A stretch of 64,000 nt of DNA from Filimonas sp. Its GTDB lineage: Bacteria > Bacteroidota > Bacteroidia > Chitinophagales > Chitinophagaceae. The stretch is taken from the NCBI GenBank assembly GCA_017306865.1, contig JAFKHH010000011.1:992001-1056000 (forward strand). The letters run 5' to 3'. The notes under the pieces are model-generated. The model was not told the origin of the DNA, ran no database searches, and saw only the letters and a list, made by a program, of their open reading frames with translations. The stretch's first letter is position 1, and each line of letters opens with the position of its first letter. This document shows, one piece after another, positions 11,743-17,175 of this stretch. A program made the translations under genes and the position numbers.

Positions 11743-12143
11743 AGTGGGATAAGGAGAACATGAAAGATCAAAGCGGATTTTTTCACTACATAGGCACAAT
11801 AGGAACATAGATACATAGGAGTTGCTAAGCGATTATTAGCTCAGACCTATAAGGTTTTTAAAACCTTATAGGTCTTACCAGACTCTTTTGTATTTCTTCT
11901 GTGTTTCTGTGCCTCTGTGGCAAATGAGACTTGTGGGTAAGCTTATTCACGATTGCCGACTCACGTCTCCCGATCCCTCCTCCCTGTATTTTATGCTTAT
12001 ATTATCTTTTGTTAACAAAGCGCCCTCGTACCTCGCACCCTATACCTTTAATCAAAATATCATATCTTAGCCTCATCCAGAAAACACCCCTTCAATTAGA
12101 GACGTTCAATTTAACCTGATTGTAAACAGTAAAATGTAACAAT
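11743..12143. repeat. Intergenic nested inverted repeat, no gene
   Basis: About 400 bases. Outer imperfect arms (ctacataggcacaataggaacatag, about 11786-11818, and cttctgtgtttctgtgcctctgtgg, about 11896-11920) surround palindrome B copy 2 (11844-11874). Short frames of about 60 codons across 11888-12119 run through repeat words and are not supported. Confidence 0.7.
11844..11874. repeat. Palindrome family B, copy 2
   Basis: Arms 11844-11858 (gacctataaggtttt) and 11860-11874 are perfect reverse complements around one base. They match the copy at 4210-4240 except at the centre. Confidence 0.9.
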
Positions 12144-13100
12144 ATGGCATTGCCGTTCATTGAGATTATTGAAGCGACCACACCGGACCCTAACCTGCTG
12201 ATGTGGAAATACGCTGACGAAGACAAAGAAATTAAAAATGGCGCACAGCTTATTGTGCGCGAAAGCCAGCAAGCCATGCTCTTAAATGAAGGGCAGTTGG
12301 CAGATGTATTTACAGCCGGCAGGCATAAACTGAGTACAGAAAATATTCCCATCTTAAGCAGGTTAAAAGGCTGGAAGTATGGCTTTGAAAGCCCATACAA
12401 AGCAGATGTGTATTTTTTCAACACACACCAGTTTATCAACAACAAATGGGGCACACCTGCGCCCATATTAATGAAAGACCCGGAATTTGGACAAGTGCGC
12501 ATCAGGGCATTTGGCAGTTTTGACGTACGCATAGCAGACGTAGGTACCTTCTTCAGGCAATACGCGGGTACGTATAAGCAGTTAACCATATTTGAATTAC
12601 AATACCAGCTACGCGACTTCATAGCGCCGAAATTTGGCGAAGTGCTGGCAAACGAACATATACCTGTTACAGCAGTAGCGGGCAATGTAACAGAGCTGAG
12701 CAAAAAAATAGAGCCATTTCTAAAACCTTACTTTTTACAACTAGGCATAGAACTAACGCAGTTTGTAATTACGAGTGTGACCTTACCGGAAGAAGTATTG
12801 GCGCATTACGACAAAATCACAAACATGAATATGGTAAGTGATATGAACCGTTTTCAACAGTTCAATATGGCCAACGCAATAGGTACAAGCGGTACTGCGT
12901 TAAACGAAGGTGCTGCACAAGGTGCAATGATGGCAACGATGATGGGAGCGATGCAGCATACGCAACAGGGCAATAAAGAAACTGCCGGTGCAGATGACCT
13001 GACAGCAAAATTGCAGAAATTGAAAACGCTGTTTGAAAACGGGCTGATAGATGAAGCCGAATATAAAGCCAAGAAAGCTGACCTGATAGATAAAATATAA
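12144..13100 (+). CDS. SPFH-domain protein with C-terminal SHOCT motif (YdjI / virion-core-like)
   Basis: 318 residues. The N-terminal half resembles the SPFH proteins annotated as virion core protein-like (Bacillus YdjI type): LMWKY near the start, LIVRESQQAMLLNEGQ, and a DPEFGQVRIRAFGSFDVRI core. A Gly/Ala/Met-rich linker follows (about 245-285), then a SHOCT-type helix (GLIDEAEYKAKK) at the end. SPFH proteins scaffold membranes, and SHOCT motifs are thought to mediate oligomer or peptide contacts. No transmembrane helix is seen. It is the first of four close genes (gaps of 6, 14 and 36 bases). In Bacillus the related gene lies with a PspA homologue and a zinc-ribbon protein. No PspA is present here. 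Confidence 0.85.
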   Translation: MALPFIEIIEATTPDPNLLMWKYADEDKEIKNGAQLIVRESQQAMLLNEGQLADVFTAGRHKLSTENIPILSRLKGWKYGFESPYKADVYFFNTHQFINNKWGTPAPILMKDPEFGQVRIRAFGSFDVRIADVGTFFRQYAGTYKQLTIFELQYQLRDFIAPKFGEVLANEHIPVTAVAGNVTELSKKIEPFLKPYFLQLGIELTQFVITSVTLPEEVLAHYDKITNMNMVSDMNRFQQFNMANAIGTSGTALNEGAAQGAMMATMMGAMQHTQQGNKETAGADDLTAKLQKLKTLFENGLIDEAEYKAKKADLIDKI

Positions 13101-13106
13101 GCTACT

Positions 13107-13364
13107 ATGGAAAACGAAGAAACACCTAAGCTAAGCTTTGCCGAACGGATGAAGCAAAAAGCAATGCAGCAAAAAAATTATGGACATGAGCTGGAGAAGC
13201 CAGAGCAGGCTGCCGGCGTTGCTGCGCGGGATTGTCCCAACTGCGGTGCGCCGCGTGCCCAGCAGGATGGCTTGACAAAATGCGCTTATTGCGGATTTGA
13301 ATTTATTCAGACAACCCTGTCTGATGGCATGTATATCAGGAAAGAAGATAATAGCAGACAATAA
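13107..13364 (+). CDS. Small zinc-ribbon protein
   Basis: 85 residues. A charged helical N-terminus (FAERMKQKAMQQKNYGHELE) precedes one zinc ribbon, with CPNCG at about 43-47 and CAYCG at about 59-63. It starts 6 bases after the SPFH gene, so translation is probably coupled. No enzyme motif is present. A metal-binding adaptor for the SPFH protein is a fair guess, but it is inference. Confidence 0.85.
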   Translation: MENEETPKLSFAERMKQKAMQQKNYGHELEKPEQAAGVAARDCPNCGAPRAQQDGLTKCAYCGFEFIQTTLSDGMYIRKEDNSRQ

Positions 13365-13378
13365 AAACACCACAACCT

Positions 13379-14236
13379 ATGTTCAATTTGTTTTCCGGTA
13401 ACAAGAACAAACAACAGTCGGAAGAACTGTCTTCCATGCAGCAGGAGCTGGCTGCAATAGAGCAGCGATGGTACACCTTTCTCAGTAAATTGGAAGAGAA
13501 ATATGATGAAGTGCTGACCGCGTTCGAAGCTGAAGCTCCATCTATATATGAGCAGGATGAAGACTATGCAAAGCGTACCTATCATCGATTTAAAAGTGGT
13601 ATGGACGGACAGTTGACTGCTATCCGTAAAAAGATGCAGGACACAGCCGAAGTGCAGATAAGAAACACTTATCGTAAATATGATACTGCCTCGTATAATT
13701 CACCTTATGAATGGAGAAACCGTTGCCTGGATGCAGAACATCAGTGGGAAGAAAGAACAAACGCAAAACGGGATGCTGCATTCGCAAAAGTAGAGCAGGC
13801 GGTTAGTGAAGACCTCGAAGTGCAATATGCCAATATATTGGCGACTTATGAGCAGATTAAAAATAAATTCACCTGTACACAGTGTGGATGTAAATTGACG
13901 ATAGACAGGCTTTATTTTATTTCTACCTACATCACTTGCCCTGCATGTAACACGCAAAACACATTTGAACCGGGCACACAGATCCGTACGCTGGAATGGC
14001 TGGCCCGCCCGCTTGCGGAACATCGTACCAAACACCTGTACGAGCAGTATCAGCAGCATGTGTACAATGGCAGGCATGATGACAGGGTTGCCTATAGGCA
14101 GGGAAAAGAAGCGGAGTCCATGTATTATGAAAAATACCTGCGCGCTATGTTTGACGAAATGAACAACATTATACCAGATAAGCGGGAACAGAACGAGCTG
14201 TTCTATCAGCGCATGTTAGCCGATCATAAACGATAG
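13379..14236 (+). CDS. Coiled-coil protein with a zinc ribbon, function unknown
   Basis: 285 residues, no signal peptide or membrane helix. The first 150 residues are rich in E, Q, K and A and should be helical and coiled. At about 163-193 two cysteine pairs (CTQCGC and CPACNTQ) form a zinc ribbon. A helical C-terminus (about 200-285) has KHLYEQYQQHVYNGRHDDR. I do not recognise a named family. The position, 14 bases after the small zinc-ribbon gene, puts it in the SPFH unit. Confidence 0.85.
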   Translation: MFNLFSGNKNKQQSEELSSMQQELAAIEQRWYTFLSKLEEKYDEVLTAFEAEAPSIYEQDEDYAKRTYHRFKSGMDGQLTAIRKKMQDTAEVQIRNTYRKYDTASYNSPYEWRNRCLDAEHQWEERTNAKRDAAFAKVEQAVSEDLEVQYANILATYEQIKNKFTCTQCGCKLTIDRLYFISTYITCPACNTQNTFEPGTQIRTLEWLARPLAEHRTKHLYEQYQQHVYNGRHDDRVAYRQGKEAESMYYEKYLRAMFDEMNNIIPDKREQNELFYQRMLADHKR

Positions 14237-14272
14237 CATCAATTAATCTTTTATAACCGAAAAAAACAAAAC

Positions 14273-15280
14273 ATGTTTAAGAAACTACTTAAAGACCTGT
14301 TGGGTAACGACGAAGAAAAAAAAGAGCCGCAGCCATCTGCTAATGCGGCAAATAATGCAACTGCACATAATCAGCATGAAGCGGAGGAAGAGGAGGAAGA
14401 GGAGGAGGAGGAATATGAAGATAATGGATACGGAGATGACGATGGTAATGCGTATGATCCGCAAACACACCATGGGTTGCATTACACCCAGGCACAGTTT
14501 GATGCAGAGGTAGACCGTAGAGTAAATGAGTGGAAGGCTGATGAAGAAGACCCGGATGATGCAGATATCAGGAATGCAAAGATCAACTTTGGCAACAGCC
14601 TGTACAGGGAGTGGAACCGGAATGTATCTGAAAGCCAGTATATGAAATTTAACCAGCAGTATGGCAGCACTGCGCTTGGCTATGCTGTATTTGGCAGTAC
14701 AAAGCATGATGCCGCTAATCCGTTGCTGGAACCCATACATGGCATTACCTTACAGGACTATGCTGCAGCATCTTCCAAAATGGCATCAGGTGTAGGTGCA
14801 AACCAGATTGCAAAAGCATTGGGTGTGGAGCAGCCTGTCTGGGAAGAAGCTAGTACTTTGTGGATATCCCGCATGCAACAGGACAATACATTTACTGTTA
14901 CTAACCTGTTCGGTACTTATTTTGGTGAATCAGCACAACACCCAAAACTGGGAGGGCTTGCAGCAGCGCAATCTGAAAGTGGAAAAGCCAACCTGGAAAA
15001 GCTGGCAACAGACCGCTATTTCTACGAAGAACTTTGTGGAGCAAGACAGGCCGCATACGAATATGGGCTTGATGGTGCACAGTGGATTATGGAAAACTAT
15101 GGCATAGCTTTAGGTGATTTTCAGAATGTTGCGGTGAAATACATGACAGAGAGAAACGCTGAGTGGAACAGTAACGAGATCATGCACTTTCAGAACTACC
15201 AGGAGCAAAAGCAAAAAGAATATGCTGCGAAATTTGCTGCCGAGCAAGGAGGCAATGTAGCAGACGATGTAGAGTTTTAA
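14273..15280 (+). CDS. Acidic-tract protein of unknown function
   Basis: 335 residues. After a basic start (MFKKLLKDLLGN) there is a low-complexity region with a run of about ten Glu (about 37-50) and Asp/Gly/Asn-rich text. A folded, mostly helical domain follows from about 65 (HGLHYTQAQFDAEVDRRVNEW). I do not recognise the family. It is the last gene before a strong terminator (15305-15336) and 36 bases after its upstream neighbour, so it belongs with the SPFH and zinc-ribbon genes. The acidic tract could contact basic surfaces or metals, which is speculative. Confidence 0.85.
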   Translation: MFKKLLKDLLGNDEEKKEPQPSANAANNATAHNQHEAEEEEEEEEEEYEDNGYGDDDGNAYDPQTHHGLHYTQAQFDAEVDRRVNEWKADEEDPDDADIRNAKINFGNSLYREWNRNVSESQYMKFNQQYGSTALGYAVFGSTKHDAANPLLEPIHGITLQDYAAASSKMASGVGANQIAKALGVEQPVWEEASTLWISRMQQDNTFTVTNLFGTYFGESAQHPKLGGLAAAQSESGKANLEKLATDRYFYEELCGARQAAYEYGLDGAQWIMENYGIALGDFQNVAVKYMTERNAEWNSNEIMHFQNYQEQKQKEYAAKFAAEQGGNVADDVEF

Positions 15281-15304
15281 TTGCAATAAAAAGGCATAAA
15301 ATGT

Positions 15305-15336
15305 AAGGCATAAGGTGTACCTTATGCCTTATTTTT
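15305..15336 (+). terminator. Terminator at the end of the SPFH unit
   Basis: A perfect 12-bp stem (15305-15316 with 15319-15330; aaggcataaggt) with a 2-nt loop is followed by ATTTTT. It lies 24 bases after the acidic-tract gene. Shorter related words (aaaaggcataaaatg) precede it. Confidence 0.75.
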
Positions 15337-15768: not shown

Positions 15769-16182
15769 ATGTCAAAACCAAATTTTGAAGCCATTGATGA
15801 CCTGGCAGAGCTAGGCAATGGTTTGATGGATGAGGCGGATTACGCGGGAGCCATTACAAAATTTTCTGAAGCGCTGCTACTGGTACCAGATCCTCGGCGT
15901 GATTGGGAAGCAGCAACATGGCTGTATGCATCTATAGGCGACGCATTTTACCAGTCTGGCGAGCATGCAAAAGCATTGGATAATTTTGTAGAAGCGTACA
16001 ATTGCCCCGGTGGACTGGAAAACCCTTTTGTACTACTGCGCTTAGGTCAATGCTACCATCATTTCAATGAAGAAAAAAATACACTGGAATACCTGTTAAG
16101 AGCGTACATGCTGGAAGGGGAAAATATATTTGAAGAAGCCCCTTCGTATCTTAGATACCTGTCTTCAAAAGTCAGTTTGTAA
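15769..16182 (+). CDS. TPR-repeat protein
   Basis: 137 residues forming about three tetratricopeptide-like helix pairs: GLMDEADYAGAITKFSEAL, WLYASIGDAFYQSGEHAKAL and VLLRLGQCYHHFNEEKNTLE. No signal peptide is present. Small TPR proteins of this kind with D/E-rich starts are frequent as immunity or chaperone-like genes beside polymorphic toxins, but no toxin gene is recognisable here. It lies 30 bases after the small membrane protein. Confidence 0.8.
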   Translation: MSKPNFEAIDDLAELGNGLMDEADYAGAITKFSEALLLVPDPRRDWEAATWLYASIGDAFYQSGEHAKALDNFVEAYNCPGGLENPFVLLRLGQCYHHFNEEKNTLEYLLRAYMLEGENIFEEAPSYLRYLSSKVSL

Positions 16183-16395: not shown

Positions 16396-17175
16396 ATGGA
16401 TACTTCTACTAATAATGACGATCAGCGTTTTGATAACTTTCCACCAATAGGAGGGTTGATGGTATCGAAAATGGTAGCCGAAGATCAGTTACAGCCAGGA
16501 TTTATGTATCGCGAAAAAAGAACCGGGCCTGAAGACAGCGGTTGGCGCATCTTTAGCGGGCTGGAATCGGAGGAGTACACAGATGATCCGAATAATGCCG
16601 GCATTTATGCCCCTGCCACTATATTGAAAATAGACCCTTCTATTGGGGATATATTATTAAAAGGCGTAGGTTCTGTGTATGAAAAATCTGAAGATGGCAC
16701 CACCTGGAATAAGGTTACAGATTTTGATATGGAAGATGACTATATGGTCACGCATCGCCTCACGGATGAATGGACGATTGAGATCAATAACCTGTTTGAA
16801 CGTGCAGTGGAAGAGTCTGGCAGTCTGCTTTATACAACGGGAGATAAATCTGTACGGTTGAATATATGGAACGATGAAGGCAAAAGTAAAGAAGACCTGT
16901 ACAATGATTACAAGCGTCATGCAGAAACCCGCGACCAGTCAGAAGACAAAACGCTACAGCTATTTGACTTTTCCGACGAAGAAATAGCACGCGTTGGTTA
17001 TTTAATAAGAGAAGGAGATGGCATCAAAGGTTACGGTGTTATTTACGGTTTTTCTCTTATAGATAATGAAATATTGATGGCGACTTTATATTTCGATGAA
17101 GATGAAGATATAGACTGGGCAATAGAAACATGGAAGAATATTAAAATTAATCCGCTTCAGCAATTAAAGGTATAA
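16396..17175 (+). CDS. DUF2185 (Imm33-like) domain protein
   Basis: 259 residues, cytoplasmic. The first 100 residues match the DUF2185 pattern: VSKMVAEDQLQPGFMYRE, then GWRIFSGLESEEYTDDPNN, GIY and the ILKIDPSI segment. This domain is described as an immunity protein (Imm33) and also occurs alone. The C-terminal half (about 120-259) is acidic, ends in a beta-rich piece (LMATLYFDEDEDIDWA), and is not recognised. It is the last gene of the plus-strand run and may be immunity-like. Confidence 0.75.
   Translation: MDTSTNNDDQRFDNFPPIGGLMVSKMVAEDQLQPGFMYREKRTGPEDSGWRIFSGLESEEYTDDPNNAGIYAPATILKIDPSIGDILLKGVGSVYEKSEDGTTWNKVTDFDMEDDYMVTHRLTDEWTIEINNLFERAVEESGSLLYTTGDKSVRLNIWNDEGKSKEDLYNDYKRHAETRDQSEDKTLQLFDFSDEEIARVGYLIREGDGIKGYGVIYGFSLIDNEILMATLYFDEDEDIDWAIETWKNIKINPLQQLKV

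Follow-up and report, generated by a model that had tools for sequence, protein, structure and literature searches.

Conservation of a four-gene unit in Bacteroidota

Do four close-packed genes of a Filimonas sp. genome belong to one system, and what could a YdjI-like SPFH protein do in such a system with no PspA beside it? The genes lie in a 64,000-nucleotide stretch of DNA, referred to here as the window (assembly GCA_017306865.1, contig JAFKHH010000011.1, positions 992,001 to 1,056,000 of the forward strand), and are called P1 to P4 in the order in which they occur. Positions are those of the window unless another locus is named.

12144..13100, plus strand: P1 gene, SPFH (Band_7_1) protein of 318 amino acids
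13107..13364, plus strand: P2 gene, zinc-ribbon protein of 85 amino acids
13379..14236, plus strand: P3 gene, helical bundle of 285 amino acids with a four-Cys zinc ribbon
14273..15280, plus strand: P4 gene, acidic protein of 335 amino acids with DUF6620 at its end

All four genes are codirectional, and the gaps between P1 and P2, P2 and P3, and P3 and P4 measure 6, 14, and 36 bases, with positions and spacing as given by a first-pass annotation of this DNA, which had proposed the four genes as one new system. With P1 as the query, 84,980 named species genomes were scanned, and the best 80 of 559 relatives were examined. In this set, P2, P3, and P4 come next in order in 36 of the 38 loci whose P1 has at least 57% identity to that of the window, where homologues lying apart in other genomes had been named as the outcome that would speak against a single system. 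None of the 42 loci with a P1 at no more than 49% identity has a P4 match at an E value of 0.001; they yielded one 17-bit P3 match and ten weak matches to the P2 profile (18 to 32 bits) in long zinc-ribbon neighbors, and some of these distant loci are short, with a partner possibly lying beyond the contig. The two exceptions among the 38 close loci are L084, which ends inside P1, and L071, which has P1 alone; the genomes of both, for which completeness is not given, have no DUF6620 match. One of the 36 loci, L053 in a Tannerella metagenome-assembled genome (MAG), carries an additional open reading frame (ORF) of 198 amino acids at 2359 to 2955, between P1 and P2, which we take to be ORF6N-like.

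Three layouts were distinguished among 17 neighborhoods compared with one another. Twelve of these, plus the window, have the order P1-P2-P3-P4 (type I). L025 and L041 (type II) have a diverged set ordered P2-P3-P4-P1, and L022, L023, and L024 (type III) have the order P4-P2-P3, with two consecutive P4 (DUF6620) genes in L023 and L024, which come from one genus. Within a single genus, inferred to be Flavobacterium, P3 was found in 27 of 338 genomes; among these, the complete set stands in the window order in 23 (with the P1 of L162 cut by the contig end), P1 comes last in two, L147 has P2 to P4 without P1, and L158 meets the contig end. The genome sets overlap in organisms, and the counts are not additive. 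A first, single-query genome scan with P3 found no relatives. The four families have correlated distance matrices (r of 0.77 to 0.84 over 666 pairs), a pattern that co-inheritance would produce and that does not prove contact. Kept together in Bacteroidota across both genus and family boundaries, the four genes are almost certainly a conserved functional unit, and the proposal that they make up one system is strongly supported.

P1 and comparison with PspA/YdjGHI

Residues 20 to 229 of P1 match PF13421 (Band_7_1) in Pfam with an E value of 4.7e-76 (255.5 bits against a cut-off of 24), and a second domain is present at the C terminus.

13008..13085, plus strand: SHOCT domain of P1 (PF09851, residues 289-314; E value of 1.1e-7, 31.9 bits against a cut-off of 27)

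The two domains bear out the earlier description of P1 as an SPFH protein like Bacillus YdjI. The highest 19-residue hydropathy of P1 is 1.22, i.e., it has no transmembrane-like stretch, and a hydropathy scan found none in any of the four window proteins. In what PMC3581485 says of SHOCT and PF13421 proteins, PF13421 is the commonest companion of SHOCT, by which account the architecture of P1 alone is ordinary; the SHOCT passages of the same paper make no mention of P2, P3, or P4. P1 has no match among PDB sequences at an E value of 0.01. Searches of NCBIfam and PADLOC gave nothing credible for any of the window proteins P1 to P4, and PHROGs gave weak matches for P1 to P3 (best E value of 2.3e-4) and no match for P4. 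A second Band_7_1 protein, whose C terminus is presumably of the GYF type, is encoded elsewhere in the host genome (L138, 1102 to 2205, minus strand).

PspA, the partner said from the start to be missing, is not adjacent to the four genes, and the whole host genome, which is 99.97% complete, has no match to PF04012, a family matched in 9 of 14 control genomes. PF13421 was found in four control genomes, B. subtilis among them. According to the passages of PMC8581546 that deal with it, B. subtilis YdjI is predicted to be soluble; YdjG/YdjH keep it at the membrane, and PspA depends on it to get there. As described in those passages, the pspA-ydjGHI operon is like the window cassette in having a predicted soluble SPFH protein, small operon partners, and zinc ribbons. 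However, the window cassette has no PspA and no membrane protein, its zinc ribbons are carried by proteins other than the SPFH protein, and the partners described there include neither P3 nor DUF6620. Elsewhere, a YcxB-domain gene is found inside the type II locus L025, between P4 and P1, and a DUF3592 gene lies upstream of the type III locus L024, with a relative in L023. The relevant passages of PMC11237479 describe a Bacillus ydj operon in which PspA and a Band-7 protein are paired with zinc ribbons, and neighborhoods associated with the phage shock protein (PSP) system in which Band-7, SHOCT, and zinc-ribbon parts occur together, as in the cassette; those neighborhoods are mostly PspA centered, and the four-gene set is not mentioned in those passages. 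The P1-P4 unit is filed here as a variant among Band-7 scaffold operons.

Zinc-ribbon proteins P2 and P3

Two CxxC-type pairs are present in each of P2 and P3. In a 13-row alignment of P2, which includes one misframed row (L036), C43 and C46 are invariant and C59 and C62 are conserved in at least 90% of the rows; the Pfam zinc-ribbon matches of P2 are all under the cut-offs. The corresponding region of P3 is as follows.

13874..13948, plus strand: P3 zinc ribbon (CxQC-17-CxxC; C166, C169, C187, and C190)

These four cysteines are invariant in 37 type I rows and also in 13 rows spanning the three types. The window P3 has no Pfam or NCBIfam family over the cut-off, and the 37-row P3 alignment gave only weak zinc-ribbon or coil matches, with the best being HypA (E value of 3.5e-4, Pfam) and LapB (1.7e-4, NCBIfam). 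The AlphaFold2 model of P3, with a predicted local distance difference test score (pLDDT) of 90.7, consists of long helices, the zinc ribbon, and further helices. Foldseek found no match at an E value of 0.001 for the P3 and P4 models, and the VIA matches listed for P3 are generic three-helix bundles, with a best Z of 11.6 against the tool's helical-bundle mark of about 13. The first-pass annotation had assigned both zinc ribbons and coiled coils to genes 2 and 3; the ribbons hold for both proteins and a helical bundle is seen in the P3 model, but no coiled-coil evidence was found for the 85 residues of P2.

Several candidate relationships were rejected. The PDB sequence matches of P3 and P4 (E values of at least 0.025), which comprise designed helices and unrelated viral or toxin chains, were taken as chance. 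P3 was not accepted as a PspA relative, with a profile probability of 0.8% against E. coli PspA, and a PspA_IM30 match in 1 of 37 P3 members (E value of 9.5e-4) was taken as a chance match of coiled coils.

P4, DUF6620, and a conserved C terminus

The C-terminal 192 residues of P4 match PF20325 (DUF6620) with an E value of 2.1e-20 (73.2 bits against a cut-off of 27), and all 37 P4 members match this profile at an E value of 0.01 or better.

14702..15277, plus strand: DUF6620 domain of P4 (PF20325, residues 144-335), the part in common with short homologues
15263..15277, plus strand: extreme C terminus of P4, D-D-V-E-F-COOH, a conserved tail

P4 covers positions 265 to 450 of the profile, with the first 264 positions being unmatched. 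Of the last two families of the cassette, both at first left unrecognized, the 285-residue P3 is still without a Pfam or NCBIfam family, but the 335-residue P4 belongs to DUF6620, a named family whose model has no recorded function; a literature search found no paper naming it. All 35 complete proteins end in ADD[IV]xF (the L053 protein is cut), and D-[ILV]-x-F ends all 15 rows of an alignment across the three types, in which the other 14 rows are 23 to 63% identical to the window P4. The tail is also conserved in 27 of 27 sequences of the Flavobacterium set. Ten columns are invariant across types, Asp332 and Phe335 among them, and residues 291 to 310, ahead of the tail, are variable (2.1 to 2.3 bits in type I). 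Because the free C terminus is invariant behind a variable stretch, D-[ILV]-x-F-COOH is probably a docking motif.

The fourth gene had been described as encoding an acidic-tract protein. A run of ten Glu is indeed present in the window protein, but it is a local feature and not a family trait. Among the rows having these residues, block 31-40 is the least conserved (1.94 bits; 2.65 bits for block 41-50), and short P4 forms (no more than 260 amino acids as called), in which the N-terminal part is absent, account for 15 of 36 relatives. Poly-Glu was rejected as a hallmark of P4 on the basis of its low-conservation block and its absence from the short forms. The N-terminal peptide of P4 is strongly amphipathic (moment of 0.72), which would fit membrane contact. 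The model of P4 has a pLDDT of 75, with the first 59 residues below 50, and is helical from residue 73 on; residues 144 to 220 weakly resemble many helix-turn-helix domains (VIA, Z of at most 5.1), with the third helix having a net charge of -1 and the whole protein having one of -34. An internal repeat in P4 is suggestive only, with a local profile probability of 51% in the three-type alignment and 2.7% in type I alone.

Distribution and transfer

Of 395 genomes searched in the phylum, the same 10 gave P3 and DUF6620, counts that include the window's own genome; within the family, 9 of 147 genomes gave DUF6620. No DUF6620 match was found in 299 genomes from the phylum of a Ralstonia or in 198 from the phylum of a Glycomyces, zeros that do not prove absence; 1 of 199 genomes from the phylum of a planctomycete has a match under the cut-off, and none of the four P1-P4 profiles matched in the 3.2 kb of that locus. 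In the P1 tree (39 rows), Daejeonella groups with Fluviicola, and Polaribacter, Terrimonas, Pedobacter, and Sphingobacterium fall into one group, both with starred support and against taxonomy. The tree also holds groups of MAGs labeled as other phyla, and matches among the best 80 of 559 in the P1 scan lie in MAGs labeled Spirochaetaceae, Clostridiales, and Zoogloeaceae; binning errors are possible in both cases. The flanking genes are unlike between genera and partly common within Flavobacterium. Judged by its differing flanks, the disagreement of the P1 tree with taxonomy, and its patchy occurrence, the unit seems to be an accessory cassette that moves as a whole. Carriers include named Flavobacterium, Chitinophaga, and Niabella strains.

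Proposed mechanism and alternatives

The best reading of the cassette, which we hold tentatively and by analogy, is that an SPFH scaffold associated with the membrane has three partners dedicated to it and works like YdjI without PspA. P1 is proposed to scaffold P2 to P4 at the membrane because it shares the YdjI family and the host has no PspA match, and a scaffold role of P1 is likely by family. The mechanism as proposed, of which we are somewhat less than half convinced, is as follows. The operon would be free-standing and accessory, spreading among Bacteroidota as a unit, and would make one cytoplasmic membrane-associated complex. P1 would use its SPFH domain to oligomerize on the cytoplasmic side of the inner membrane, as is thought for YdjI; P2 and P3 would be adaptors, bound to P1 or to each other through their zinc ribbons and the helical bundle; and P4 would be the terminal adaptor, whose fixed C-terminal D-[ILV]-x-F would dock a partner. 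P2 to P4 would stand in for PspA/YdjG/YdjH, and the most likely job of the complex would be to maintain the membrane or membrane complexes when the envelope is stressed, a role that is plausible by comparison with YdjI. Complex formation, membrane association, and the stress role are all steps that we infer.

Several observations weigh against a scaffold of this kind. In the SHOCT passages of PMC3581485, first tests gave SHOCT no support as an oligomerization domain, and the window cassette encodes no membrane protein, whereas YdjI, as described in the passages of PMC8581546, needs YdjG/YdjH. The amphipathic N terminus is missing from the short P4 forms, the fold searches list no specific match for the P3 or P4 model, no cassette member with a tested function was found, and shared ancestry alone partly explains the correlated distances. 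L071, in a Spirochaetaceae MAG, has a P1 at 67% identity and no P2 to P4 within 12.9 kb. P1 was not found at the three type III loci, of which L022 stops at the contig end, and it is gone from its usual place in L147, where P2-P3-P4 are intact. Since type III and L147 show no P1, P2 to P4 may act without the scaffold, and the occurrence of some cassettes without P1 suggests a core made up of P2 to P4, with the SPFH protein as its platform.

An antiphage defense system in the form of a compact mobile cassette, with P4 or P3 as the phage sensor and P1 as the scaffold of a response at the membrane, would also suit the patchy occurrence (10 of 395 genomes in the phylum, 27 of 338 in a single genus), the conflict between the P1 tree and taxonomy, and the unlike flanks between genera. 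We consider this unlikely. There is no credible PADLOC match, with none for P1 and P4 and chance-level coiled-coil or zinc-ribbon matches for P2 and P3 (best E value of 0.0022); no clear defense-island setting surrounds the cassettes, in a comparison made without a control region; and no relatives were found in viral contigs (P1 and P4), phage records (P4), or plasmids (P3), the combinations searched. PADLOC applied to 118 of 127 neighbor proteins from 22 loci gave one AbiEi, one AbiEii, a few single candidate or generic matches, and two two-member models (25 of 41 families listed). A protein quality-control or assembly scaffold, in which P1 would collect clients at the membrane in the manner of SPFH proteins that work with the FtsH protease and the zinc-ribbon partners would be chaperone-like adaptors, is rather improbable as well. 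In its favor are the FtsH interaction of some prokaryotic SPFH subfamilies reported in part of PMC2636767 and the chaperone-like assembly roles proposed for Band-7 proteins in passages of PMC11237479; against it, genes for proteases, ATPases, or chaperones do not recur in the cassette, and P1 is without a transmembrane-like stretch.

The P4 tail invites comparison with the single-stranded DNA-binding protein (SSB), since the E. coli SSB end, DDDIPF, binds many partners, as stated in the passages of PMC5531588 on it, and resembles the tail in its acidic residues, aliphatic residue, and terminal Phe. P4 ends in ADDVEF, the host's two SSB-family proteins found end in VDDLPF and SEGLPF, and all 15 P4 rows share the final Phe and the Asp three positions ahead of it; the first DUF6620 region of the model, moreover, resembles helix-turn-helix domains (Z of up to 5.1). 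Mimicry of the SSB tail, by which the P4 C terminus would tie a membrane scaffold to replication or repair proteins, is nonetheless very improbable, because no P4 tail examined has the penultimate Pro of those SSB tails, P4 has no SSB domain in Pfam, a Z of about 5 does not indicate a relationship, and the charges of the third helix (-1) and of P4 (-34) argue against DNA binding. A bolder version, to which we give little credence, would make P2-P3-P4 the core of an undescribed system that recruits the SPFH scaffold (types I and II) or dispenses with it (type III), with the P4 tail docking into SSB-binding proteins or a comparable hub, i.e., a mobile, membrane-tethered surveillance or repair device.

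Transcription signals and neighboring genes

Two hairpins border the cassette.

15303..15336, plus strand: intrinsic terminator 3' of P4 (13-bp stem, 4-base loop, then TTTTT)
11843..11875, no strand assigned: 15-bp hairpin between the upstream glucanotransferase gene and P1

The hairpin 3' of P4 folds with -20 kcal/mol (z of -4.77), with five T after it on the plus strand, in agreement with the strong terminator proposed at first; a mechanical terminator scan reports it on the minus strand only. The terminator-like sites of that scan (8 in the window against 5.9 expected) are at chance level, as are the promoter-like sites (10 against 12.1 expected), none of which stands out. The upstream hairpin (-20.3 kcal/mol, z of -5.91) is without a T run on the plus strand.

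Downstream of the cassette, a TPR protein (15769 to 16182) lies between it and a gene for an Imm33-domain protein (16396 to 17175, plus strand; E value of 2.6e-29), 1.1 kb past the cassette. In Flavobacterium, a DUF2314 protein with weak ankyrin matches is found 3' of the cassette (L017, 10509 to 11255; L147, 2 to 190, by sequence likeness). SUFU and ankyrin proteins make up 3 and 2 of 118 cassette neighbors, respectively, counts that were made without a matched control and from which no enrichment of immunity-type genes is claimed. An AbiEi/AbiEii pair is probably near the cassette at L080 (9139 to 10742), a locus inferred from adjacent ORFs.

Significance

The SPFH/SHOCT and DUF6620 families are known already; the four genes as a fixed unit, the three layouts that they take, and the tail of P4 are nowhere described in the literature found by a search outside which most subscription papers lay. 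Through this unit, DUF6620 and an unnamed zinc-ribbon/helical-bundle family gain fixed partners and a likely membrane location, and partner sets other than PspA are suggested for YdjI-type SPFH scaffolds. A host without a PspA match raises the question of how membrane stress is handled, and the presence of the cassette in named Flavobacterium, Chitinophaga, and Niabella strains makes this question directly testable.

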